A stretch of 64,000 nt of DNA from Piscirickettsiaceae bacterium (GCA_013215805.1 JABSQM010000005.1:124001-188000); one strand, 5' to 3'; shown: positions 22,430-54,476, numbered from the stretch's first letter. The notes: generated by a model from the letters alone, not told the origin. Numbers and translations: made by a program.

Positions 22430-22790
22430 TCCATAAAATCACGAATGCCAGAGCATAATCCCTCTAATCACTTAAGTTTGCTAATTTTTGGACAATATTC
22501 AATTTGGCAATGAACCATATTTATTAATATGTTATATTCTAATCTGTCTTTGCTCATTATCTCCAACTACAATATGATGTAAGCTTAAATTATTACGATA
22601 ACATGTGCTAAAGCTTCAATAGCTGCCTTATGTATTGAAAAATATTTGGCTAAAATATCGTGTGATTTATCAAATGTACAACATTTATAAATTAAGCATC
22701 ACTTAAAATTAAATTGAGCGATTTTATTACCGTGCATATCTAATAATACCTAGATATGTGGAATACGGTGTCCATGCTTATACTAATATT
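22430..22790 (-). pseudogene. acpS: acpS pseudogene (holo-ACP synthase)
   Basis: No long frame remains, but AcpS landmarks survive in order on the minus strand. First is a start-like MDTVFHISR (family: GTDIVxIxR). Next is HDILAKYFSIHKAAIEALAH (family: FLAKRFxxKEAAxKAL). Near the end, LSD-stop-RDYALAFVIL matches the family's final strand. There are several stop codons and at least one frameshift. The place fits: acpS ends the rnc-era-recO-pdxJ-acpS order of gammaproteobacteria. recO and pdxJ are absent between it and era. A working phosphopantetheinyl transferase must exist elsewhere if fatty acids are made. Confidence 0.8.
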
Positions 22791-23096: not shown

Positions 23097-23999
23097 TTAT
23101 GAATTATCATGATATCCTAAATATTTTAGCATACTTTCATCGTCTGACCATCCTTCTCGCACCTTAACCCAAATTTGCAAAAAAATTTTACAGCTAAATA
23201 ATTGTTCCATTCTTACGCGAGCATCCTTACCCACCGCTTTGAGCATCCCGCCTTTCTTACCTATGACAATATTTTTCTGCTTACTATGTTGTACATAGAT
23301 AATGGCACTAATACTATACATATTGTTTTCTTTTCTGAATTGCTCAATTTCAACTGTAACGGAATAAGGTAATTCTTGTCCTAAGCGACGAAATAATGGC
23401 TCTCGCACTAATTCAGCCGCTAAAAATTTAGAACTGCGGTCAGTTAACTGTCCCTTTGGAAAAATTAACTCACCCTCCGGTATCAATTTTAATATTTCGG
23501 CTTCTAATAGTTCTACATTAATATCCTTACGTGCTGAAATAGGAATAATATTAGTGAAGTTATATTGAGTATCTAGCCTATCTATGTAAGGCAACAATGT
23601 ATTTTTATTAGCTAGCTTGTCGATCTTATTGATTGCTAAAATAACAGGCACACTAGCATTGGTTTTTATATGCTTTAACACTACTTCATCTTCGTACGTC
23701 CAGGTAAGGTCTATAATAAATAACACTACATCAACATAATCAATTGATAAAACTGCAGCCCTATTCATATAACGATTTATAGCCCTCTTACTATAGGTAT
23801 GAATACCTGGGGTATCTACATATATCAACTGACTATGCTTCAATGTTTTTATGCCAAAGATACGATGCCGCGTCGTTTGTAGGCGAGGCGAAACGATACA
23901 TAGCTTTTGACCTAAAATACGATTAATCAATGTTGATTTTCCAACATTGGAGCGACCAATAATAGCCGTATATCCGGACTTAAGGTTAACATCTGTCAT
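23097..23999 (-). CDS. era: GTPase Era
   Basis: A 300-residue GTPase. G1 is GRSNVGKST at 15-23 (many relatives have GRPNVGKST), followed by RLQTTRHRIFG, DTPGIH and NKID. The C-terminal KH domain has IVIGKKGGMLKAVGKDAR and ends in WVKVREGWSDDE. Era helps 30S maturation by binding the 3' end of 16S rRNA. Downstream of rnc in the usual operon, it belongs to copy A of the tandem duplication; a dead 5' fragment of a second era lies at 28981-29222. Confidence 0.95.
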   Translation of the reverse strand: MTDVNLKSGYTAIIGRSNVGKSTLINRILGQKLCIVSPRLQTTRHRIFGIKTLKHSQLIYVDTPGIHTYSKRAINRYMNRAAVLSIDYVDVVLFIIDLTWTYEDEVVLKHIKTNASVPVILAINKIDKLANKNTLLPYIDRLDTQYNFTNIIPISARKDINVELLEAEILKLIPEGELIFPKGQLTDRSSKFLAAELVREPLFRRLGQELPYSVTVEIEQFRKENNMYSISAIIYVQHSKQKNIVIGKKGGMLKAVGKDARVRMEQLFSCKIFLQIWVKVREGWSDDESMLKYLGYHDNS

Positions 24000-24000
24000 A

Positions 24001-24673
24001 ACTTGTTTCCTGTTTGCGCCAACAATACGCTCTGCGTTTTTTATTATGCTGCACGATAGCTGCTACCCTTCATATAACTGCTTTGTCTAATACCAGCACA
24101 TAACTATAAGGATTCTAATATTAGTTATTCTGTCTACTTTTATTTATTTGAAGGTATGGATAGGAGCCGATGTTTCCTACTTCGCCATAACTTTTGTAAG
24201 AGCATTTTAAAATATTTTCTTGTCTAATTTCATATTCATTATATTTAATTGCTCATCAAATAGCTTCAGCATTGGTATATTGGCAGATGACAAGCCACCG
24301 CCTAGATATATTGCACTCAATATTGCTTCCATCAAATTACCTGGAACAGCTTTTCATCCAAAGCTACCATTGTTTATTTCTCTCTATAAAAATAAATACT
24401 CCACCTGGGTTCAATTTTTTATAAATTTCAAAAAAAGTCTTACCTGTGATTAATAATGCTTGTAATCGACTTGATCGTTCTCAGTTAGTCTGTCAAAAAA
24501 CGATTGAATAGATTCTCTATAATCATGACATTTAGCATAGTATCACCAAAATATTCTAATAGTTGATTATTATCGACGCTCACTGTGAGTTAAAGACTTT
24601 TCCAATGAATTTATATGATCAGATGTAACGAATAATTTTTAATAGCAGATATTACCGTGATAAGACATCATTT
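24001..24673 (-). pseudogene. rnc: rnc pseudogene (RNase III), copy A
   Basis: It aligns along its whole length with the intact rnc at 29218-29910, but carries many small indels and stop codons. For example, the region encoding the RNase III signature keeps the same order (GCATAGTATCACCAAAATAT opposite GGCATCACCAAGATATTC) while the frame is broken. It sits between era and lepB, the ancestral place of rnc. The functional RNase III is now supplied only from copy B, about 5.2 kb away. Confidence 0.9.
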
Positions 24674-24955
24674 CATTTATTGTCAATTTTACTCAATATT
24701 AATTTCCCATCCTAAAAAATTTGATCAATACCATCATCATTGCTACAATGCAAATCAATATTATCAATTATTACATGAATATATTATTGATTTCAAAATT
24801 TGACAAATTTATTTATTTTTAAATCTAATTACTATCTTATGGCACTTCAATTATTATTAAAGACCAATATGAAGGGATGATTTATGAAATATATGCTATA
24901 TTAGTATTATTCGCATCTAGACCATCTTCATATTATTGTTATTTTATGTTAATTA

Positions 24956-25717
24956 TCAATCAATTGGCCTGGCCAGCCGACTCCATACTATACCGCCCAG
25001 ATTCCAATCCCAACTCATCCAAATGAAAAGTGCTTTACCAACTAAATTTTCTTTTGGGACTGTCCCCCAAAAGCGACTATCACTACTATTATCTCGGTTG
25101 TCACCCATTACAAAATAATGACCATCAGGAACAATTATTTCACCTTCTACTAGACGTCGACCTGGAAGGATCAGTATGTCATGACCTGTAGCGCCCAAAT
25201 GCTCAAATAGGAGTTCACTTTTTCCCTTTACTAATTCCAATAAATTTCCATCTTTCATTCTTGGATTTTGTTTTACATCGTTACCATTGATGAATATGGT
25301 TTTATTGAAATAGCCTATTTTATCACCAGGCAAACCTATAACCCGTTTAATGTAATTAATTCTAGGATTTTTAGGGAAACGAAAAACTAATACATCTCCC
25401 CTCTTTGGATGGCCTACATCAAACACCTTATAATTAAGCACTGGCAATCTAATGCCATAGGGAAATTTATTTACTAATATAAAATCACCAATATGTAAAG
25501 TAGGTAACATTGATGCTGAAGGAATACGGAAGGGCTCAGCAATGAACGAACGAATCACCAATATTAATAGCATAATTGGAAAAAAAGAGCGAGCATACTC
25601 GATAATAATAGATCTCTTTTGCTTTCCAATTTTTTGTTGCTTCCATGGAAGCATATCGATGAGTGAAATCATTCCTGAAACTAATACTAATGTCACTATT
25701 ATCTCTGAAAAATTCAC
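24956..25717 (-). CDS. lepB: Signal peptidase I
   Basis: A 253-residue membrane-bound serine protease. Two N-terminal hydrophobic segments (about residues 4-24 and 43-60) precede the catalytic region: Ser69 in RIPSASMLPTLHIGDFILV and Lys124 in INYIKRVIGLPGD, then the GDNRDNSSDSRFWG box near the C-terminus. It removes signal peptides from exported proteins. The start codon is GTG. lepA lies 11 bp upstream on the same strand. A second, dead lepB is in copy B at 30219-30911. Confidence 0.95.
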   Translation of the reverse strand: MNFSEIIVTLVLVSGMISLIDMLPWKQQKIGKQKRSIIIEYARSFFPIMLLILVIRSFIAEPFRIPSASMLPTLHIGDFILVNKFPYGIRLPVLNYKVFDVGHPKRGDVLVFRFPKNPRINYIKRVIGLPGDKIGYFNKTIFINGNDVKQNPRMKDGNLLELVKGKSELLFEHLGATGHDILILPGRRLVEGEIIVPDGHYFVMGDNRDNSSDSRFWGTVPKENLVGKALFIWMSWDWNLGGIVWSRLARPID

Positions 25718-25728
25718 CTTTTGCCCCT

Positions 25729-27525
25729 TTAAAATTTCTTCGGCAATTGTAATATTGCTAAGAAAGCTTCTTGTGGAACATTGGCCTTGCCAATAGATTT
25801 CATTCGTTTTTTACCAGCTTTTTGTTTTTCTAATAATTTACGCTTCCGTGAAACATCACCACCATAACATTTAGCTAACACATTTTTGCGCATCGCTTTT
25901 ATAGTGACTCGTGAAATTATCCGTCCATTACTAGCAGCCTGAATTGTAATATCAAACATTTGCCTAGGTATCAATTCTTTCATTTTCTCAACCAAAGCGC
26001 GACTACGCACAATCTTATCATCCCGATGTACGATTATGGATAAAGCGTCGACTCTTTCGCCATTAATTAATATGTCTAGCTTCGCTAAATTTGCTTTTTG
26101 AAAGCGACTGAAATAATAATTTAGTGATGCATAACCATGACTGATTGACTTCAAACGATCAAAGAAATTAATTATCACTTCATTCATCGGCAATTCGTAA
26201 CTTAGGGTTACTTGCTTGCCTATATATTCTATATTTTTTTGTATGCCACGCTTTTCAATACATAAAGCAATAACTGAACCTAAGTATTCATGTGGTACCA
26301 AAATATCAGCGATTACCATCGGTTCACGAATCTCATCAACAAAGACCATATCAGGTAATAGAGCTGGATTATCAATATTAATTATCTCTCCCTTGCAAGT
26401 AATCACTTCCAATACCACAGTCGGCGCAGTAGTTATTATATCTATATTATATTCACGCTTCAGACGTTCTTTGATAATTTCCATATGCAATAGTCCAAGA
26501 AAACCACAGCGGAAACCAAAACCTAATGCCTGAGAATTTTCAGGCTCCCAAAATAATGAGGCATCATTAAGACATAATTTACCTAATGCTTCTCTGAATG
26601 CTTCAAAATTATCTGAGCTAACAGGAAACAGTCCTGCATAAACCTGCGGTGTTATAGCCTTAAATCCTGGCAATATTGTTGTTGCACCATTGTGTGCATG
26701 TGTTAATGTGTCTCCCACGGGAGCACTGTCAATATCTTTAATACCAGAAATTACATATCCTACCTCACCAGAATATAAGGCATCTTTCTTCGTGCGCTTG
26801 GGTGTAAAAATACCTACCTGCTCAACCTGATATTCATGTGTTGTCGACATAACCTTAATTTTATCGTGCGGTTTGATGGAACCTTGCATAATTCTGATTA
26901 ACGCAATAACACCAACATAACTATCAAACCATGAATCGATAATGAGTGCTTTTAATTTTCCATTGGGTTCACCCATTGGTGCAGGAATCGATTTAACTAA
27001 GACTTCCAAAAGTTCTTCAATGCCGAGCCCTGTCTTAGCACTACATCGCACTGCATTTGATGCATCAATGCCAATAATATTCTCGATTTCATTAATAACA
27101 CGTTCAGGTTCAGCTGCAGGTAGATCCATTTTGTTCAGTGCAGGAATAACCTCGAGTCCTAAATCAATCGCTGTATGGCAATTGTAAACACTTTGAGCCT
27201 CTACTCCTTGTGCAGCGTCAACGATCAATAGAGCACCATCGCACGCCGCTAAAGAACGGGATACCTCATAGGAAAAATCAACATGTCCAGGGGTATCAAT
27301 GAGATTAAGATGATATATTTCTCCATTACGTGCCTTATAATCAAGCGATACACACTGAGATTTAATCGTAATTCCCCGCTCCTTCTCAATATCCATTGAG
27401 TCAAGTACCTGTGCGGACATTTCACGATCTGATAGGCCACCACATACCTGAATGAAACAATCAGCAATTGTAGATTTACCATGATCAATGTGAGCGATAA
27501 TGGAAAAATTTCGTATGTTATTCAT
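25729..27525 (-). CDS. lepA: Elongation factor 4 (LepA), translational GTPase
   Basis: A 598-residue translational GTPase. G1 is [14 protein letters not shown]3 [16 protein letters not shown]4 NKMDLP; domain II, the EF-G-like domains, and the LepA-specific C-terminal domain (rich in Lys/Arg: [16 protein letters not shown]) follow. It acts on ribosomes during initiation/biogenesis and stress. It forms the lepA-lepB unit of copy A. A dead copy with a large internal deletion is at 30923-32085. Confidence 0.96.
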
Positions 27526-28249
27526 TTATCCAAACAATGTTACCTTAGTATTTTCCATCACTTCATTACTCAGCAACCATAAGGTTGCAATATCACTATT
27601 CATACTTATTTATGAAACGTCTTAATTAGATATATATAACTATAATTTGGTGATGATATACGGCATAAATTAATTATGTAACTCTGCCTATAAATGAACT
27701 TTAACTATATATAAAATTTGGTTCAGTGAACGATTTTTACTGAGAAAGACTATCACAAGATAGTTGGTGTCGTACAGATGATTTACAGTACCTTGCATTA
27801 TTGAGCGCTTTAGAATTATATATATAATTTTTAAATTAATTTGGAGAAAATATATCTAGTCGTCTTGTAGAAACTTTAATGGTTATTTGGACTCCGAACA
27901 CTATTAAATTAACTTTAGGCGCGAATCAATATAGTAATTAATTTAACAACCTAATATTGACACAGATATTTTTTGATCAGTCTATATATACTCATAATAA
28001 AGTAAATGCCCTAAACGTATAGTATATACCACACTTTTTAGATCACTCAAACGTCTTGGAATGATATATTAACTCTAATAACATATTAATGCATTCTCTG
28101 ATATCAACTCAGTGAGTCTATGCACGCTTTTATAAATAGAACAGAAATATTAATTTTATAATCAAGTACGTAGGTTGTTATTATTGGTGTAATAATATTT
28201 TTACTTACCTTCAATTTCCACCGGCATGACCTGTGTGCCCCCCCAATAT
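27526..28249. other. lepA-cysG divergent intergenic region, copy A
   Basis: About 720 bp without a gene, sharing recognisable blocks with 32086-32900 in copy B. It once held the promoters of the lepA operon and of divergent cysG. A short run of seven C at about 28238-28244 is the only notable oddity. Confidence 0.5.
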
Positions 28250-28980
28250 GTTCTGGATTATAAGATAAAATTGGGGCGATAATTAAGGTTTAACTGTTAC
28301 TTATTGTTATTTATAAGATAAAAACCAAGAAACTGAATATTTTAATACTTTATCATGCTTTAATATGAAAGTTAATATAGCAGGTTAAAAAGTACTGTAA
28401 TAGTAAAATCATTCACCAGCATATGAAGATTAATTTTGTGACATTAAAGAAAAATTTAGATGATCCATTTCATATTATGATATTTATCCATAAATAATTA
28501 AATAATATTTAGACGAAATATTTACCATTATTGATTGACTTAAGGGATCGACCATGCCTAATTGCGTCAGTAGAAATAGTAGTTATCAGGGTGTAGTATG
28601 TTAATAAGGATCATGCAAAAATAATAATAATTGTACCAATGATATCTATAAACAACCCAGATATTAGTTGCCAATAAAATTTTATGATGTACATTTATCG
28701 GACAAGAGACCAGTTATATTCGCTACAGATAATATAGGATATTAACCGGAATACTCACCAAGGATCAAAATAACATAATATCTCGATTAATGTCACAGAT
28801 ACCCAATCATTATATAATTTTACCTACCATCAATTATTGATTATTCATCTATGATTGCTGTGTCTAGAGGAAAACTTGCCTATTGCGGCAAAGCCATTAC
28901 ATACTCTCATGAAACACCTTGATTATGCCTGGGCATGATTGATACACTTGCTGCTTGGACAGCATCCTATCATGATACTG
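28250..28980 (+). pseudogene. cysG: cysG pseudogene, copy A (truncated at the duplication junction)
   Basis: No long frame survives. Short scraps match the N-terminal dehydrogenase/chelatase domain of siroheme synthase: YDVHLSDKRPVIFATDNI (family: HLxxxxLVIAATDD) and FYLPSIIDYSSMIAVSRG (family: FxxPAIVDRSPLIIAVSSGG). It aligns with the longer remnant at 32900-34300 up to base 28980, where the sequence switches to era. This 3' truncation marks the duplication junction. Confidence 0.72.
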
Positions 28981-29222
28981 TTACATCCCAGTTTTAATAT
29001 AAATATTCATACCCCCCCTTCAATAAAGTATTAATACTTAAAGTATCTAAATTGATTACAACTCAATGTTTTATAATGAAATGCAATGTCACATCATTTG
29101 TCGACAACTTATGATAATATATAGCCTCTATACATCTAATATTATTTATTAATATTTATTTTCCAAAGTTATAGCATTCTATTATCACCGTATATCTAAA
29201 CTTAGAGTTAACGTCTGTTATG
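28981..29222 (-). pseudogene. era: era 5' fragment, copy B
   Basis: About 240 bp aligning with the first 80 codons of era. The match is clearest near the start (TATCTAAACTTAGAGTTAAC against TATCCGGACTTAAGGTTAAC) and around the G1 loop region. It is truncated at the junction with cysG and could never encode a working Era. It shows that the duplication began inside era. Confidence 0.82.
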
Positions 29223-29910
29223 ACCTAGACCCATCGCCTATTAATATTAACACACGCTCTGCCGTTTTTTGTTCTGCTTTTCGATGGCTACTTCCTCTTC
29301 CTATGATCGCTTTATCCAATACCGGCACTTGACATGAGGCTTCGAATATTAGTTGTTGTTTATCTATTCTTATTTCTTTGATGGTATAGATGGGAAGCGG
29401 GTGCTTTCTACTTTGTAATAATTCTTGTAAGCGTGTTTTAGGATCTTTTGTTGTTTGATTTATATTAATTGTATTTAATCGTTCATTAAATAGTTTTAAG
29501 ATTGGTACCTTGACAAATTCTAAGCCACCATCTAGATATATTGCACCAAATATTGCTTCCATTGCATTAGCTAGAATAGATTCTCGTCTAAAACCACCAT
29601 TGTTTATTTCTCCTTGACCAAGAATCAATACTTCACCTAGGTTCAATTCTTTAGCAATTTTAGATAAAGTCTCCCCTTTAACTAATGATGCCCGTAATTG
29701 GCTTAATTTTCCTTCGTTAGTATGTGGAAAACGATTAAATAAATCCTCTGTAATAATAAAATTTAATATGGCATCACCAAGATATTCTAATAATTCATTA
29801 TTATTGACGCCCACACTACTGTGAGTTAAAGCCTTCTCCAATAAATTCATATTATTAAATGTGACGCATAATTTTTCACACAGCAGATATTGACGTGGTG
29901 GAACCATCAT
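29218..29910 (-). CDS. rnc: Ribonuclease III
   Basis: A 230-residue RNase III: the signature LEYLGDAILNFIITE (Glu42 and Asp46 among metal ligands) is followed by GEINNGGFRRESILANAMEA and a C-terminal dsRNA-binding domain starting at DPKTRLQELLQSRKHPLPIY. It cuts rRNA precursors and other double-stranded RNA. This is the only intact rnc; it lies in copy B, detached from the working era and lepB/lepA of copy A. Its own promoter is presumably in the 300 bp upstream. Confidence 0.95.
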   Translation of the reverse strand: MMVPPRQYLLCEKLCVTFNNMNLLEKALTHSSVGVNNNELLEYLGDAILNFIITEDLFNRFPHTNEGKLSQLRASLVKGETLSKIAKELNLGEVLILGQGEINNGGFRRESILANAMEAIFGAIYLDGGLEFVKVPILKLFNERLNTININQTTKDPKTRLQELLQSRKHPLPIYTIKEIRIDKQQLIFEASCQVPVLDKAIIGRGSSHRKAEQKTAERVLILIGDGSRS

Positions 29911-30178
29911 TTATAGTTAATCTCACTCAATATTAATTTACCGTCTTAAAAATTCAATTGACACCATGATTGTTGTCATAATGCAGACTAATATTATCAA
30001 TTGGTACATAAATATATAATTAGTTTTAAAATTTGACAAATTTATTATTCTGCCATTCAATTAATGTTTGATAGTACTTTACCCTCATATTCGACAATAT
30101 ATAAAAATATATAATATGAAGCATTACTTATATTTAGCTAATATTTATAATATTACTATTTTATAATAATTATTAATA
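29911..30178. other. rnc upstream gap, copy B (aligns with 24674-24955)
   Basis: AT-rich gap that aligns with the rnc-lepB gap of copy A, including a shared AAATTTGACAAATTTATT. A DUF4845-type gene often stands here in relatives, but none could be confirmed in either copy. Confidence 0.45.
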
Positions 30179-30218
30179 GATCAAATGATCAAATGATCAA
30201 ATGATCAAATGATCAAAT
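30179..30218. repeat. Octamer tandem repeat (GATCAAAT x5)
   Basis: Five perfect copies of GATCAAAT, followed by the partial copy GATTATAT. It stands exactly at the 3' end of the dead lepB of copy B and is absent from copy A, so it arose after the duplication, most likely by replication slippage. Confidence 0.95.
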
Positions 30219-30911
30219 GATTATATATTATACCGCCAAATATCTAATCCTAACTATCTAAATAAAAGGGGGGTTACTATTAAATCTTATTTTGGGACTG
30301 TGCCCCCATAAGCTATTATTGCTAATATGATAGTATTTATCACTTATCATGAAATAACTATTATAAAAAATAATTATGTGACTTCCGACCACATATTACC
30401 TGAATTGATAGATATATAATCACCTTTAGTACTCGGACGTTCAAATTTAAATTCATTTTACTTTTATAGTTTATTATATATTCTTAACGTCAATAAATAT
30501 AGTTTTTATCAAAAAGCTAACTTTATCATCAGATAAAGCTAATAATCTGTCCAATGTGATCAATTTTAAGATTATTAGGTAAACAAGAAACTAATACATC
30601 TCTTCTCCGTAGAGGACTTACATAAAGCACCCGTAAGTAAGCACTGGCAATTGAATGCCATAGTACACTTACTTATTAATATAAAATACCGATATATCAG
30701 GTAGTTAAAATAGATACCAAAGGTATATGGAGGAGCTCATTAATCGGCTAGAAAATAATAGATTTTTCAATAGTTCAATTAAAGAAAGGAGCAGGCACAT
30801 TAGATATCTTTTGCTCTCCAGTCTTTGTTGCTTCCATGGAAGTATATTGATAAGTGCAATTATTCCTGAAACCAATACTAATGTCACTATTATCTTCGAA
30901 AAATTAACTTC
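30219..30911 (-). pseudogene. lepB: lepB pseudogene (signal peptidase I), copy B
   Basis: It aligns along most of the length of intact lepB, for example TCTTATTTTGGGACTGTGCC against TTTTCTTTTGGGACTGTCCC. It has many indels and stop codons, and the region of the catalytic serine is damaged. The start codon is also changed from GTG to GTT. Its 5' part reads in frame from the end of lepA* in a 96-codon chimeric frame at 30705-30995. Confidence 0.9.
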
Positions 30912-30922
30912 TTGTCCCTTTT

Positions 30923-32085
30923 GAAATTTTTTAGGCGATTGCAATATTGTTAAGAAATCTTCTTGTGGAAAATCAGCCTTGCCAATATATTTCATCCTTT
31001 TTTACCAGATTTTTATTTTTCTAACAATTTACGCTTCCGTGAAATATCACACCATAAAATTTAGCTAACACATTTTTGCGCATCGCTTTTATAGTGACTT
31101 TTGAAAATATCCGTTCATTAATAATGAGGAATCATTAAGACATAATTTACCTAATACTTCTCTGAATGCTTCAAAATTATCTGAGCTCATAGGCAACAGT
31201 CTTGCATAAACTTGTGTAGTACAAACCTGAATCTTGACGATATTATTGTTAAATCACTGTGCGCATGTGTCAATGTATCTTACATGGGAGCACTGTCAAT
31301 ATCCTGAATACCAGAGATTACATATCCTACTTCAGCAGAATATAAGGCATTTTTCTTTGTACGCTTCGGTGTAAAAATATATACCTGCTTAACCTGATAT
31401 TCATATGTTGTATACATAACCTTAATTTTGTCGTGCAGTTTAATGGAATCTTGCATAATTCTCATTAACGCAATAACACCAATATAATTATCCAGCCATA
31501 AATCGATGATGAGTGTTTTCAATTATTCATTGGGTTCACCCATCGGTGCAGAAACTAATTTAACTAAGACTTCCAAAAGTTCTTCAATACCATGCCCTGT
31601 CTTAGCATTACATTGCACTGCATTTGATGCATAAATGCCAATAATATTCTTGATTTCATTAATAACAGTTCAGGTTCGGCTGCAGGCAAATTAATTTTAT
31701 TAAGTGCAGGAATAATCTCGAGTCCTAAATCAATTGCTGTATGGCAATTGTAAACACTTTAGGCCTCTACTCCTTGTGCAGCATTAAGGATAAATAGAGC
31801 GATTTGCACGCCGCTGAAGAACGGAATACCTTATAATAAACATCAACATGTCCAGGGATGTTATGAGATTAAGGTGATATATTTATCCATTACGTACCTT
31901 ATAATCAAGCGATACAAACTAAGATTTAATCATAATTCCCCGCTCCTTTTCCATATTCATCGAGTCAATTACTTGTGAGAACATTTCACGATTTGATAAG
32001 CCACCACATACCTGAATGAAACGATCAGTAATTGTGGCTTGGCCATGATCAATGTGGGCGATAATGGAAAATTTAGTATGTTATT
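30923..32085 (-). pseudogene. lepA: lepA pseudogene (elongation factor 4), copy B
   Basis: It aligns with lepA at 25729-27525 but lacks about 620 bp (codons ~323-531), the join being near 31115 where the two flanks meet at TTCATTAATAATGAGGAATC. Further frameshifts and stops break the GTPase domain. The longest open piece is an 80-codon frame at 31280-31522 from domain II. It is dead. Confidence 0.92.
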
Positions 32086-32899
32086 AATTTATCTAAACAA
32101 TGTTACCTTAGTATGAGGCTCTATTACTTAGTTACTCAGCAACCACTAAGGTTAGCGATATCACTATTCATACTCATTTATAATGACTATTTAGTTAAAT
32201 ATATATAACTATACTTTGTTTATAATACGCGAAATGAATTAATTATATGACTCTGCCTATAAATCAACTGTAGCTTTAGGCAAAATCTTAAATTCGGTTC
32301 ATTGAACGAATACTTTCACTTAAAAAAATCATTGGTAATGCACAGGTAATTTATGGTACCTCGCATTATTGATCGGTTTACAATCATATATATTTTATAA
32401 ATTGTAACTTGTGAATTATTGAAAGAAAAATACATCTAGTCGTCTTGTAAGAACCTTAATTGTTATTTGGACCCCTGATACTATCCATTTAACTTAAGGC
32501 ACAGATTAATATAGTGAATCATTTAACAATCTAATACTGATACTATATTTCTTATCAGTCCGCATTTACTCATGATATAGAAAACATCCGTAAATATGTA
32601 GAAGATGTTAAGTGTAATATGCATTATGACATTTTAAATCGTTCAAATTTATAAAAAGATGTATATCTCCAGAGATAATATACTGAATAGATTCTCTAAG
32701 CTTAATCCCGTGACGCCTATACTACGCTTCTATAATTTAATTGAAAATACTCATATATGATCCAATGCGTAGATTGTTTTATCAATTTAGCGATTATGTT
32801 CTACTTGCCTTTAATTTTAATCTATATTTATTATAATTATCTGCATCACAAAAAAATTATATCGTTATTATTTAAGGCTCTAATGTTGAGTTTTATGAT
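32086..32899. other. lepA-cysG divergent intergenic region, copy B
   Basis: About 810 bp, alignable in blocks with 27526-28249. No gene, no tRNA and no clear terminator were seen. Confidence 0.5.
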
Positions 32900-34300
32900 C
32901 TATAAATAATACAGGACATCAAAGATTGATACCCTTATATTGTACTTCGACATGATCATTGCACGACAGTTAAAGTGCTGGCGTGATAATAGTAATTACT
33001 GATAATATTCAGATCAGTTTTATAGAATTGAGATAATATTTGGATGATGTTTTTGTATGATGATGTTTATAGATAATAATCAAAGAAGACTTATATGGAA
33101 TATTTATCAGAATTTGTTCACTTAAAAAATTGATCTCCACATTGTTAGGTAGGCGGATAATAGCAGCTAATTAAGGCTCATACAAAGACAATGATAGTCG
33201 CACTAGAGATGTCTATATCAACTCAGATATTAGTTTATCACAAGCAAGTTGATTCGTTGCTAATAAAATTTGATGTTGTACATTTATCAGAACGATAATT
33301 AGCAATTGATTATACTCAACAATTGAGACATTAATAAATATATCCACCAAATAAGGCGACGTAATACATTGGTTTATTTTGTGGACTACTATAAATTATA
33401 GAATTTTATTCTACCTTTAATTATTGATCGTTCTCCCATCATTGTCGGTATCTATCCGAGCAACTCGCTTATTTTGGCAGGGCAATCAGATACTTTCATG
33501 GAATACTTTAATTTCACCTAGCCATGGTCTGCTTGCCACTCTAATGAGATCTTATCGAGATGCTGCTAAATTTAAATATTTTAAAACTATCGATATATCA
33601 CCGTTTAGGGAATATATCAATAATATAAGTTGCAGATTGCATATTGGAGGTCAATACAACTTAAGTAAGCAAATTTTACGAGATATATTAACTTATATTT
33701 GTCTGGAAAAATTAAAATAGGGTGAGATCTACCTAATATAAGTTGTTCAACACTTAAATTATCAATTTTTAAAACACTTAAATTAATACAGCAAGACAAA
33801 TAAAGAGTTGATAAATCATTATTAATAATATATCGATTACAAAGTAATCATGTCCTAAGTTTAAAAGGGATAGATCTGTTTATATTGAGACCGTGGTGCG
33901 AAGAGATGGAGGTCTTAACAGCTAGAAACATTAATTTTTAAATATGTGAGGATCACCTCTGCATCAAAATGTGCACCTATGATAGGATGTAATGAAAGCA
34001 TTATCGTTATGCTCAATATTGATATATCGTATAATAGATCAATTAAAGAACGGCAAACAGGAGACTTATTGGTTTGCTTTATTACAGCCTAAACAAACTA
34101 TCTATATTATATATAGACTCTGCTAAATTATCAGCATCTATCTCAGCGCTTATTATTAATGGTAGTACGAACTTTACACCTAGTAGCAATTAATTCCCAC
34201 TGAGCCTACAAAGACGTCGACAAGCATGGCCTAGGCACTACATAGAAACATCTCTGAGGTTAGAGAACTATAATAACCGGCTGAACCAATATTAATTATT
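32900..34300 (+). pseudogene. cysG: cysG pseudogene (siroheme synthase), full-length remnant
   Basis: Both domains of CysG are recognisable in shifting frames. The dehydrogenase/ferrochelatase part shows FILPLIIDRSPIIVGI, then a 98-codon open frame (33424-33720) with HGLLATLMRSYRDAAKFKYF and GGQYNLSKQILRDIL. The uroporphyrinogen-III methyltransferase part shows GEIYLI at 33721, LSLKGIDLFILRPWCEEMEV, then RITSASKCAP (family: GITSASGCA). A final EXXLRLENYNNRL fits the family's last helix. Stops and frameshifts are frequent, so it is inactive. The left 2/5 is duplicated at 28250-28980. Confidence 0.82.
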
Positions 34301-34562
34301 ATCAATGAAATAGTAAAATTAGATAATTTATTACCTTAGTTTAAATGTTAGTTATACTTTATTTACTACAAAATATTTTTAATATGCTTCTTTATTCTGA
34401 TATTTATAGATCTACCTATTATTCATGAAGGAATGATGTGGAGGCATCAGTAATGATTCTTTACATTTAAATTCACACTAATCTAGTGAATATTAAGTGG
34501 TGGACAAACAATTAAGGCTATTAATTTTTAGGTTGTACCATATTGGCGATGCCAAAAATTGT
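34301..34562. other. Gap between cysG remnant and ispF
   Basis: About 260 bp without coding sign. In relatives truD and surE follow ispF on this side, but no remnant was recognised. Confidence 0.45.
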
Positions 34563-49820: not shown

Positions 49821-50312
49821 ATGCTACTTAATATGTTTGTGTTGACACAAAATCTATTAAAAATAATTTTACCATTTATCGAACGGTTTCAGTACAAATC
49901 AGTATTAGCCGTTGGAAACATGGCGATATCGATATGCCGAGAACTACGAAATGATAACACCATATCTCTAACGGATCCGTTTGATCTTCGACAGTTGGAT
50001 AAGTTGGGATCAGTAGACATAGCCCTGGTTAGTGATGTTACGGAAATTTTGAATAAACCACAAGCCATGGAATGGCTGGGAGTATTACGAAATTATCATA
50101 CCCAACACATCATGGTTATTTCTGACAAAGTTAACGCAAATGATAAAGATTGGCAATTAACAGATTATCTGTCGCTTGGACTCAAATATCACGGTGATTA
50201 TTCTGATAGATCAGTCTTCAGCTATACAATAGAAGACTATCATTTCAAACGTGATTGGCTGAATAGTAAATTTTGGGCTAATCCAGAAATATACGATAAA
50301 TATCGTTGGTAA
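49821..50312 (+). CDS. DUF6231-type protein, function unknown
   Basis: The open frame begins at 49683, but family-like sequence starts only near residue 50, so the ATG at 49821 (or 49833) is the likely start, giving about 160 residues. The core looks like a degenerate Rossmann/methyltransferase-like fold: SVLAVGNMAISICREL, DPFDLRQLDKLGSVDIALVS, and the C-terminal LNSKFWANPEIYDKYRW, the signature of this gammaproteobacterial family. It is intact although it stands between two deserts. Function unknown. Confidence 0.7.
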   Translation: MLLNMFVLTQNLLKIILPFIERFQYKSVLAVGNMAISICRELRNDNTISLTDPFDLRQLDKLGSVDIALVSDVTEILNKPQAMEWLGVLRNYHTQHIMVISDKVNANDKDWQLTDYLSLGLKYHGDYSDRSVFSYTIEDYHFKRDWLNSKFWANPEIYDKYRW

Positions 50313-51552
50313 CGGCCTATGATCAACAGAAATTATCTTTCCTTACATGCAAATACTCAGGTCATTACTTTATCATCAAATAACACATACAATTGCGATT
50401 CATGGTTAGTAATATTTTGTTTGAGAATATTACTTCTGACTCATTACAAATTGTATCTACATCATGAATCAATCTTTAAAATCTAAATGACGAGTATTGA
50501 GATAAAAGTGGTATGCCTCAGTTCAATCACTAGATGGATTAGATGATCTGCACATTCCATCAACAGATTTAAATTAATGTTGTAAGGTATCTGTCACAGG
50601 ATTAATCCGAAGATTAAAATTACTCTCCACATCTGGAGGCCCATCAAATAACTGTTCTAAAAAGCGCTTATATTAGTCAATGTCTATGCCCATGAGGTTA
50701 GTAAAAAGCAATATAGGATGTCAAACTAATATTATGATATCCTAAATTAGAATTGGAATATATTCGGTTATTTCCTCGAACATATGGATTAAAGAACAAA
50801 CTATTTGTCTAAGTAGGTTTTTTATTGAACAAATTGCCCTTCTTTTAAGTCTAGTTTATTTGGACTACTTACATCCCTGTAAGCAGTTACTCAATGAAAA
50901 TATGGACTTTATTGTTTCTTGGGTACGGCAAAGATGTTGTTGGCAAAATTACAATCTTGTAATCTTTAAATGTCACGTTGATTGCGTCGAGCGATTGAGT
51001 TGCCAATTCTCCTGAAAAGATAGGTGAATATATATTTATGTCCATTATACAAGCCTGCGCTGAAAATTTATTTTGTATAATAAAAGATTAGAGGTACTAA
51101 TAATTTTATATTATCAAAAATGATAATCTAGCGCTTGATAATAGAGAAAGCATTGATCTATTAATTAAGATCTCTGATGGACCGACACGATACTATCGTG
51201 GTGATGAAGTTACCTTGAAATAATTCATAATTATCCTAATATAATGGTTGATTTTCATGCAAAAGGTATACAATCAATGTAGATAAGGTTTGTTTATTTG
51301 ATTGTTCGGTTAACCTAAATAACATTCAATAAATATATTTTTAGTTGGGTGACTAAAATTAAAATTTAAACCCTTTACTAAAGGCAGACCTTTAAGACTG
51401 TAAGAAAATAAAGATATTATTTAGTACATACACAAAATATTTCATCACACCATCATTATCAGTCTTTTACCCCTGCAGTTGATTTTTAAATTTTGCTACA
51501 TTAACCCATCAGTTTTATTTATTATAAATTTTATATTTATAATAAGGCTAAA
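50313..51552. other. Gene desert, first part, with DUF4384-like scrap
   Basis: About 1.2 kb without a gene. At 51122-51223 a plus-strand scrap reads ESIDLLIKISDGPTRYYRGD, then EVTL and a stop; the DGPxRYYRGDEV stretch resembles the beginning of DUF4384 domains, which occur in exported or kinase-linked proteins. On the minus strand near 50640 FLEQLFDGPPDVESNF also looks coding-like but was not identified. Confidence 0.4.
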
Positions 51553-51756
51553 TTGAATATTGTGGATGTACCGGTTGGCGTTACTCAATCAGATAAGGAA
51601 GGTCGCCGTGATAAAATTGAATTGCGTGCTTGTGCTGCTGGATCATTCAATGTTGATCTAGTATCGCTTTTACAAGAAACTGGTGTGCACATAATTTATA
51701 TAATGGGTTTCCATGAGAAACATACTAAGATGTTGTTAGTGTTACGTGATAAATAA
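51553..51756 (+). CDS. Small open frame of 67 codons, unidentified (gene or gene remnant)
   Basis: This frame stands out from the desert by its ordinary codon use, with GC-richer codons such as GGTCGCCGTGATAAAATTG. The product includes DKEGRRDKIELRACAAGSF and a C-terminal MGFHEKHTKMLLVLRDK. No family was recognised and no convincing ribosome site precedes it. It could be the undecayed 3' end of a longer gene, or a real small protein. Confidence 0.4.
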   Translation: MNIVDVPVGVTQSDKEGRRDKIELRACAAGSFNVDLVSLLQETGVHIIYIMGFHEKHTKMLLVLRDK

Positions 51757-53795
51757 AATTATATAATTATTTCATTATGTGCATCTAGATACCTATATCA
51801 TTATCGCAGCACCATACAAATATATATAGACTACGGTTTATTGGCATACAACAGAAAAATTATCGAGTCAGTAGGAACTTATTTATTAAGCTCAATGATT
51901 CAGTAAGGTTGTTAAAATAAAGTAATTATGTTATATTATTTTTTGTACTCTGTATAAAGTATCATTATTTATATTGCCGATGTGAAAATCAATTTGATTG
52001 TACAAGGTGTATGCTACCAGAAATTCAGGTATCAAGCGATCTTCATGGGAATATCGAAGTCAGAAGTGTTGTAGGTTTATTTTTGAATATACTCGCGTCT
52101 TTTATTTTCAATAATACTGAAATGTGAGCTGGTGGTAAAAAATCTTATAAGACAAAGCCTATTGTCAGGAATCGAAACATTATTCTCTATATATTTAAAA
52201 TGTTTATGCCAATCAATAATTGATGATTTGGATATTTATACATCAGTATAATATGCAAAAGTATGGCTCTTATCTGATAATAGTTGTTATGGCCGTGTTC
52301 ATTGTCCAGATAATGAAAGATCGATCTTATCCCAAGATAAATTGCTATCTTTATATAAAAAAAGATATTTTAATTAATCATGAGATATAACAATCCACCA
52401 CTTACAAATAGGTAATATAGTCTTTTATTGACCGATAGTTTAGGTAAATAAATGGTCCTTGATAAGGCAGGATATTTAGATGATCATCATTACTTTATCT
52501 TTAATTAATTCTTATTTGAGAATCATTGAGAAATATATTATGGACTCATTTGCCATGATTGTTTATTATATCACAGAATTATTAATTTTTTAGACTGCGT
52601 CTAAGATCTCTTTGGTAAGGTCTGCCCGCTTATATTTTTTAATTATTGATTGAACAGTAAGATTAACTTTATATTTTAAAATTTGGATGATTAAGTTATA
52701 AAAAATAAAGCACCATTTAACCCAAACGATGACACTGCATTATTAGTTAAAGTGTCAATGATTATATTGGACATCGAATACACCTTTAGCAATTTAAACT
52801 ATAGGTGGTGAATTAATAAAATTAAACCATAGGATGACCGCGCTTATTGATCATATTGTAGCCAGTTCAGGATATTTTATTTAATATAATAATGATTATT
52901 ATTTGTACGATTATTCAGATACATATTGTCTTTTGTCCAATTTAGATAGTGATTGGACATTTCAACAGTAGTTGTTGTCTTAGCATTGCCGAATGTTGCG
53001 CATGCAGAGCCCGATCAAGTATATGCAGATATATTCAAAAAAACCTTGGTCATGGGAACTGTCTCCAACAAAGATCAGATAATATTATGATATCGAGGTT
53101 ATTTATAATAATTGAGATGAATGCATAAATAAAAATAGTTACTGCTGATAGGCCCTCATCTATATAATATTTTATGAAAATATTAACAGGTATCCTTTAT
53201 GAGGATAAACAGATTGATGTGTCATGGTGTAGAGAATTTAAGTATAAATAGATAACCATCCACAATAAATATCTAAGGATTAAAGATATATTATTGAAGG
53301 TAAGGCACAACAGTAAATCTAGATAATATCATCATTTCAGCATAGAAGTCTATATCTTATATTATATCCATCTATAGCGTATATGGATCTTTCTTGTACC
53401 TAGAATGTAGTGTAGTAAGATAAATCTAAAATATAAATAGTGCGATAGTATATTGCTGAATAAATACCTTGTATTTTAGATAATTTTGAGATGAGCACTT
53501 AGTCAAAAAATTTTATAGGCTATAAAATTATTCTTGATATCTTAAATTTTTATTTACTAAGGGATGTATTATTCACGACCGTATATTTCAAACAATGCTA
53601 TATGATATTGCGCAAAGAGGTGCTAATAAAACATAATTTTCTTCGAAATTTGATACCAATTTAAGATTTTATTTGTTATAAATAATGAGGATGGGAGGTA
53701 CGTATGTTCTTCAACATTAAATTATTTAATAATAATAGTAAAAATTAAATGGATTTATTTGATCTTAGAATCGATCATCCCATGAATTAAATTTT
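51757..53795. other. Gene desert, second part, with decayed coding scraps
   Basis: About 2 kb without a gene. Plus-strand scraps include WLLSDNSCYGRVHCPDN near 52270 and, near 52964-53090, TVVVVLALPNVAHAEPDQVY, which has the form of a signal peptide with an AHA cleavage site followed by a mature start. Frames break quickly around both. They suggest lost exported proteins upstream of the two-component pair. Confidence 0.4.
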
Positions 53796-54476
53796 ATGCG
53801 AATATTGCTCATTGAGGATGAGGTCGATTTGCGTGAGCAAGTGACCAAACAATTACAAAAAAAAAATCTAACTGTCGATGCTGTAGCTGACGGTGCAGAA
53901 GGCTTATATCGTGGCTTAGAATATCCATACGATTTGGCAGTTATTGACCTCGGATTGCCGAAATTATCGGGTATAGAGGTTATTAAGCGATTACGTGCTG
54001 CGAGCAGAAGATTTTCTGTTCTTATATTGACTGGTCGTGGCGGTTGGCAAGATAAAGTAGAAGGACTTGAGGTTGGCGCAGACGATTATTTAGTCAAGCC
54101 ATTTCATTTTAAGGAACTATTGGCACGCATTAACGCCCTATCTAGACGAGCTTCTGGTTGGGCTAATGCCACATTACAATGTGGCAACGTTACGTTAAAT
54201 CCTACTAACCAAGAGGTAATGAATGGAGGAATGACTGTAAATTTAACTGCCTACGAGTATCGTCTGTTACATCTTTTAATGTTGCATGCAGGAGAGGTGT
54301 TATCCAAGACTGATATAACTGATCATATTTACGAGCAAGATCATGATCGAGATAGTAATGTTATTGAGGTTTTTATCAGACGTTTACGTAGCAAATTAGA
54401 TCCTGATAAAAAATTAAGTCCAATTGAAACTCTACGTGGTCGCGGCTATCGTCTAACATTGCCTCGTGTTCATTAA
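53796..54476 (+). CDS. phoP: OmpR/PhoP-family response regulator
   Basis: A 226-residue response regulator. The receiver domain has acidic residues Glu7/Asp8, phospho-acceptor Asp51 (YDLAVIDLGLPKLSG), Thr79 and Lys101 (DDYLVKPF). The DNA-binding winged helix follows from about residue 130 (TAYEYRLLHLLMLHAGEVLS, then VFIRRLRSKLD and GRGYRL). The closest general type is PhoP, judged by the partner's PhoQ-like H-box. It overlaps the kinase gene by 11 bp. Intact despite flanking deserts. Confidence 0.85.
   Translation: MRILLIEDEVDLREQVTKQLQKKNLTVDAVADGAEGLYRGLEYPYDLAVIDLGLPKLSGIEVIKRLRAASRRFSVLILTGRGGWQDKVEGLEVGADDYLVKPFHFKELLARINALSRRASGWANATLQCGNVTLNPTNQEVMNGGMTVNLTAYEYRLLHLLMLHAGEVLSKTDITDHIYEQDHDRDSNVIEVFIRRLRSKLDPDKKLSPIETLRGRGYRLTLPRVH

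Follow-up and report, generated by a model that had tools for sequence, protein, structure and literature searches.

It is an open question how gene order in bacteria changes without a stage at which an operon is broken. One accepted route is duplication with subsequent reciprocal loss, of which few intermediates have been caught. We examined a candidate locus in a Piscirickettsiaceae bacterium. The window, namely, the whole stretch of 64,000 nucleotides that we analyzed, corresponds to positions 124,001-188,000 of a 355-kb contig, and the draft genome (1.149 Mb, 27 contigs) is rated 100% complete and 0.04% contaminated. A first-pass annotation proposed that an era-rnc-lepB-lepA-cysG segment occurs twice in tandem and that each gene except cysG, which is lost altogether, survives once through complementary loss. 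We herein describe how far this proposal holds and what it suggests about the origin of the locus.

The closest named relatives by LepB were Methylophagaceae/Methylophaga bins (68-58% identity), and G001 and G002, which belong to its genus, have genomes of 2.1 and 2.4 Mb, respectively. The G+C content of the genome is 34% and ORFs of at least 100 amino acids cover approximately 64% of it, which together indicate that the genome is reduced and that decay is ongoing. A literature search provided nothing useful on a named host or habitat. The genome had been described as free of mobile elements, and this was incorrect. An IS240-type DDE transposase domain was found in relics of approximately 0.9 kb on several contigs; the genome holds decayed insertion-sequence relics.

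A comparison of the window with itself yielded two colinear matches on the same strand: 23728-25933 with 28959-31123 (70.9% identity, 1180 bits) and 26552-29044 with 31120-33630 (72.8%, 1489 bits), the sole interruption being 622 bp that copy B has lost. The top score in 50 Markov shuffles was 42.5 bits, which rules out chance similarity. Copy A (approximately 23,728-28,990) and copy B (approximately 28,960-33,630) lie head to tail and are 71-73% identical. The segment originally proposed, 23755-33565, was within approximately 70 bp of these ends. A match confined to the coding regions had been named beforehand as evidence against a duplication; the colinear match ran on through intergenic sequence.

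The duplicated unit is approximately 5.2 kb in length and ends inside era (around codon 80) and inside cysG (around codon 165), with no long flanking repeat at its ends. Its junction, placed to within approximately 20-40 bp (Table 1), occurred in this genome alone among the 57 of the family that were searched. No second tandem duplication of similar length was found when the genome was compared with itself over 1,144,948 of its 1,149,260 bases (99.6%). On the minus strand, the upstream copy B reads lepA', lepB', rnc, and a 5' fragment of era, in which primes denote dead copies. Copy A follows downstream with a 5' fragment of cysG, lepA, lepB, rnc', and era; cysG itself is encoded on the plus strand and diverges from lepA.

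Table 1. Features of the duplicated locus, in coordinates of the window.
Feature	Position	Strand	Description
era, intact (GTPase Era)	23097..23999	-	ORF of 300 aa; NF000908, 349 bits (cut-off 237)
rnc', dead, unit A	24035..24676	-	11 in-frame stops and 10 frame-breaking indels relative to live rnc
DUF4845 gene remnant, unit A	24677..24955	-	~279 bp left; 387-388 bp in relatives
lepB, intact (signal peptidase I), unit A	24956..25717	-	253 aa; TIGR02227, 168 bits (cut-off 47)
Probable conversion/recombination tract	25615..27694	.	87% identity with unit B; 65-71% in the flanks
lepA, intact (elongation factor 4), unit A	25729..27525	-	598 aa; TIGR01393, 926 bits
Dead cysG 5' part, unit A	28516..28985	+	tblastn with CysG of G002/G003/G009; cut by the junction
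Duplication junction	28970..29010	.	5' part of cysG (A) joined to 5' part of era (B); ends of the self-matches overlap
era' 5' fragment, unit B	28985..29222	-	Aligns to era codons 1 to ~80; 4 stops
rnc, intact (RNase III), unit B	29218..29910	-	230 aa; TIGR02191, 219 bits (cut-off 166)
DUF4845 gene remnant, unit B	29911..30175	-	~265 bp left
lepB', dead, unit B	30176..30908	-	9 stops and 14 frame-breaking indels
lepA', dead, unit B	30920..32080	-	6 stops and 9 frame-breaking indels, including the 622-bp internal deletion
Dead cysG, full-length relic	33080..34345	+	tblastn pieces, G002 CysG residues 31-460, E 4e-17 and 5e-8

The composition of the segment differed from that first annotated: era and cysG were only partly copied, and a DUF4845 gene, degenerate in both copies, had been overlooked. 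Only the 5' quarter of era (to approximately 23,765) lies within the unit. Since the second copy of era was cut by the duplication and dead from birth, the single survival of era does not represent a sorting event. The full-length cysG relic was duplicated only up to approximately 33,630. A working cysG was not detected in the genome, and the dead gene gave no Pfam match in read-through frames, being recovered only with the CysG proteins of relatives. Approximately three one-base frameshifts are common to both cysG copies in an alignment with three relatives that was read by eye, suggesting that cysG was probably already dead before the duplication. In every relative examined, the DUF4845 gene separates lepB from rnc. 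The lepB-rnc spacer is approximately 265-279 bp in both copies versus 387-388 bp in G001 and G002. Since it is equally short in both copies and retains only marginal similarity to DUF4845, this gene was probably truncated before the duplication. The only whole genes inside the unit, and the only ones ever whole in both copies, were lepA, lepB, and rnc; therefore, the sorting concerns three genes. Complementary loss with single survival holds for these three and not for era, which was cut at birth, or cysG, which was cut and probably dead beforehand.

Stops and indels of the dead copies were counted in the reading frame of the live copy. As first annotated, rnc is alive in copy B only, and lepA and lepB are alive in copy A only. 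The live RNase III, Era, signal peptidase I, and LepA are full length and above the curated family cut-offs. In the genome as a whole, lepB is the sole TIGR02227 match, lepA is the sole full TIGR01393 match, and the rnc of unit B is the one intact copy; no further intact rnc, lepA, or lepB was found. The HMM matches of lepA' are pieces containing stops. The dead partners on both sides are still readable, and rnc now stands apart from lepB and era, both of which the annotation had recognized. Two strains with separate losses, joined in one contig by the assembler, may produce such a picture, and the genome is a draft of 27 contigs. However, assemblers do not normally merge or chain copies with a divergence of 27-29%. 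Moreover, both copies lie inside the 355-kb contig, estimated contamination is 0.04%, and either copy alone would lack a gene that is absent elsewhere in the genome. We consider an assembly artefact to be very unlikely.

Relatives carry a single unbroken lepA-lepB-DUF4845-rnc-era operon, followed by recO-pdxJ-acpS-cysM. The operon was complete in all but one relative examined; the contig of the exception starts at lepB and, thus, is without lepA. In trees of codon positions 1 and 2 that included nine relatives, the live and dead copies of lepA, lepB, and rnc paired as sisters in each case, at 100% support. Furthermore, cysG adjoins lepA in both copies, an adjacency not seen in relatives. Based on these two results, we concluded that the lineage had already separated from G001 when the duplication occurred. 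We also considered degP, the gene upstream of lepA in relatives, for the corresponding position at this locus and rejected it; degP is intact elsewhere on the contig.

Copies of a recent duplication would not be expected to differ by as much as 27-29%, which may instead suggest that copy B arrived by horizontal transfer or strain recombination with a relative and landed beside the native operon. The sister relationship at 100% in all three genes argues against this origin, as do the features that both copies have in common, namely, the lineage-specific cysG-lepA adjacency, the cysG frameshifts, and an Asp-to-Asn change at the catalytic Asp position of RNase III. In addition, the breakpoints form a perfect tandem, and the donor would need to be a very close relative. 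The copies do not group with different relatives, and we rejected a horizontal origin of copy B on the phylogeny; for the scenario as a whole, including strain recombination, we consider the probability to be very low.

Changes in the live and dead copies were compared by relative-rate site counts with G001 as the outgroup. The branch lengths of the live copies in mixed-position trees were approximately zero and were not used, position 3 being saturated relative to the relatives. The ratios of live to dead changes at positions 1, 2, and 3 were 7:44, 2:34, and 23:19 in lepA, 8:57, 6:50, and 15:26 in lepB, and 4:52, 6:38, and 17:21 in rnc, respectively (positions 1 and 2 combined, 9:78, 14:107, and 10:90). 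The totals over the three genes were 33:275 at positions 1 and 2 and an even 55:66 at position 3. Since the changes were skewed at positions 1 and 2 and even at position 3, the live copy is under purifying selection and the dead copy is in neutral decay, with equal mutation in both.

The two copies are not equally diverged along their length. Identity between A and B was 0.65 at 28,960-27,695, 0.87 at 27,694-25,615, and 0.71 at 25,604-23,770, and a change-point fit gave a BIC of 4860 with three rates versus 5022 with one. The middle tract (2.1 kb) spans lepA, its upstream region, and the first approximately 30 codons of lepB, and shows the marks expected of gene conversion: sharply lower divergence, boundaries off the gene ends, and the involvement of silent sites. 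The difference at third positions was 13% for lepA versus 26% for lepB and rnc (p = 3e-6), while the contrast at fourfold sites alone had a p value of 0.06. A later conversion or other exchange between the copies is the probable source of this tract, which the first-pass annotation had not noted.

The fourfold-site contrast, which by itself is not significant, leaves some room for other causes of the high identity, namely, that lepA' in copy B remained under selection for longer or that lepA is under strong synonymous constraint. We regard this explanation as rather doubtful. Selection on lepA' would lower changes at positions 1 and 2, not at position 3, and the difference over all third positions is clear. 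The boundary falls within lepB (9 of 81 sites differed before it and 184 of 597 after it), and the non-coding region upstream of lepA is also more alike between the copies. Fourfold identity between G001 and G002 in lepA was 0.41, not above the expectation from lepB (0.37) and rnc (0.32), with all of these values near saturation. If exchange between the copies produced the tract, the simplest reading of the divergence is that the decay of rnc' and lepB' began first, followed by the exchange over lepA and then by the death of lepA'. Such an exchange would require a degree of recombination.

We consider it very probable that this locus arose by tandem duplication with subsequent random loss. In the lineage of this reduced, Methylophagaceae-related bacterium, cysG had come to adjoin lepA when a segment of approximately 5.2 kb, with one end within cysG and the other within era, was doubled head to tail. 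The genes lepA, lepB, and rnc were then each present twice in full; rnc died in A and lepB in B. The death of lepA in B would have come after the exchange that made the lepA tract alike, or its decay would have been reset by that exchange. The order lepA-lepB-DUF4845-rnc-era has thereby become rnc followed by lepA-lepB-era, with dead DNA between. Tandem duplication-random loss (TDRL) is known from animal mitochondrial genomes, and the features of TDRL were found here: head-to-tail copies with a common ancestor within the lineage, losses from both copies, and an order changed relative to relatives. As in the mitochondrial cases, a multi-gene tandem copy was followed by random loss gene by gene, leaving relics between the survivors. 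In contrast to those cases, the present locus is a core operon on a bacterial chromosome, two of its genes were cut by the breakpoints, and a conversion tract was probably added later.

The SNAP model (Brandis and Hughes 2020, PMC7055797) describes a similar course, in which a duplication loses different needed genes from each copy, return becomes impossible, and a new order results (step 3). The state expected at step 3 was observed here: copy A has a dead rnc', copy B has a dead lepB' and a dead lepA', and the live copies are under purifying selection. In the SNAP study, which covered four species, 2-4% of isolates had duplications, and one-copy mutations were found in 2 of 14 duplications, corresponding to steps 1 and 2 only (PMC7055797). 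The present locus differs in showing a later stage and in the size of its unit, which is 5 kb rather than tens to hundreds of genes (PMC7055797). It also differs in that the positive selection of the model has left no trace, random loss being enough. The outcome is nevertheless one that SNAP predicts (PMC7055797), and the duplication may have been kept by selection for a doubled dosage of one gene, with sorting afterwards. We consider this route unlikely. There is no trace of two long-selected copies of any gene, and rnc' and lepB' appear to have evolved neutrally over most of their history as second copies. Furthermore, when three doubled genes are lost at random, 6 of the 8 outcomes (75%) are reciprocal, and reciprocal sorting is, thus, no sign of selection. 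Drift in a recombination-poor, symbiont-like genome would be enough.

With live rnc confined to copy B and live lepB to copy A, the duplication should now be locked. Judging from this anatomy, collapse to one copy would be blocked; a return to one copy by recombination would cost the cell either rnc or lepB. The genes rnc and lepA are dispensable in Escherichia coli; in the present bacterium, the selection acting on rnc suggests that the cell needs it. Tandem duplications are normally lost through RecA-dependent recombination. We did not detect recA in this genome by a family search or by tblastn with the RecA of a relative. It is present in G001, and none was seen in G002, the assembly of which is 94% complete. 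The absence of recA would help a tandem duplication to persist.

The first-pass annotation also suggested that rnc has become uncoupled from the era/lepB/lepA transcript. All live genes at the locus point in the same direction. A promoter scan upstream of rnc and lepA found 64 sites versus 53.6 ± 7.5 expected and pointed to no particular promoter, and no convincing common motif emerged from a search for a conserved upstream element in comparison with relatives. Considering the sequence arrangement, rnc may be transcriptionally uncoupled from era, lepB, and lepA.

Several known systems resemble the locus in part. Complementary gene loss between two symbiont genome copies is known from the splitting of Hodgkinia lineages in cicadas; however, those copies are separate genomes in separate cells, whereas the present copies share a chromosome, on which they lie in tandem. 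A tandem duplication in a reduced, pseudogene-rich genome is also found in CRt, a Coxiella-like tick symbiont (PMC4494066), but this is approximately 147 kb, its copies are treated as identical, and reciprocal losses are not reported. In Psychromonas ingrahamii, a gammaproteobacterium, the partial duplication of a core operon, the alpha operon, has been discussed under SNAP (PMC8046335). Its second copy lies elsewhere on the chromosome, and we found no description of reciprocal death there. In the open-access literature, we found no report of a bacterial case in which both dead partners are readable.

Taken together, we lean toward reading this locus as a late-stage natural intermediate of bacterial gene-order change that is still readable, in which the copies decayed apart, were partly re-equalized across lepA, and, with recA lost, are now each held in place by a gene that the cell needs. 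The consequences for the cell are probably modest. The locus allows the steps of the change to be ordered and relatively dated by silent-site divergence, and its tract, as a probable conversion, shows that exchange between the copies continued after decay had begun. The present results suggest that further cases may be sought with profit in small, recombination-poor genomes.

In relatives with a single lepA-lepB-DUF4845-rnc-era operon, era is followed by recO-pdxJ-acpS, whereas the era-cysM interval of the window contains a decayed acpS. Neither recO nor pdxJ, the genes after era in these relatives, was found anywhere in the genome. Moreover, a family search and tblastn with the RecA of a relative gave no match to recA in the whole genome. 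The ORF-poor stretch matched the polyphosphate kinase C-terminal domain (E 1.4e-8) when read through stops and is probably a dead ppk.

Features in the window and in contigs (C) of the same genome; L numbers denote labeled sequence stretches
Feature	Position	Strand	Remarks
acpS relic, decayed	22434-22764	minus	between era and cysM
rnc, surviving RNase III	29218-29910	minus	residue 115 is Asn
Short tandem repeat, TTGATCATT-type units	30180-30225	minus	end of dead lepB' (unit B)
ORF-poor stretch, 3.5 kb	50302-53800	plus (match)	polyphosphate kinase C-terminal domain
Overlapping direct-repeat arrays	L163, L147, L183		starts of C1, C12, C19
Dispersed repeats, ~0.9 kb	L182:3901-5000; many sites on C6, C14, C15, C18, C23		60-85% identical

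The short tandem repeat of lepB' is not present in copy A. The direct-repeat arrays at contig starts are a likely cause of the assembly breaks. Among the dispersed repeats, the C18 copy tested contains a broken IS240-type DDE transposase domain. Since a Pfam search of one C23 repeat stretch gave no match, these repeats may belong to more than one family.

The surviving RNase III carries Asn (ILAN) at residue 115, the counterpart of the catalytic-site D114 in E. coli; all nine aligned relatives have Asp at this position. An Asn codon also occupies the matching position in the dead rnc' of unit A, the other tandem copy, and, thus, the Asp-to-Asn change is older than the duplication. Since the first RNase III domain of Drosha likewise has Asn at the D114-equivalent position, the Asn-115 enzyme may still be active.
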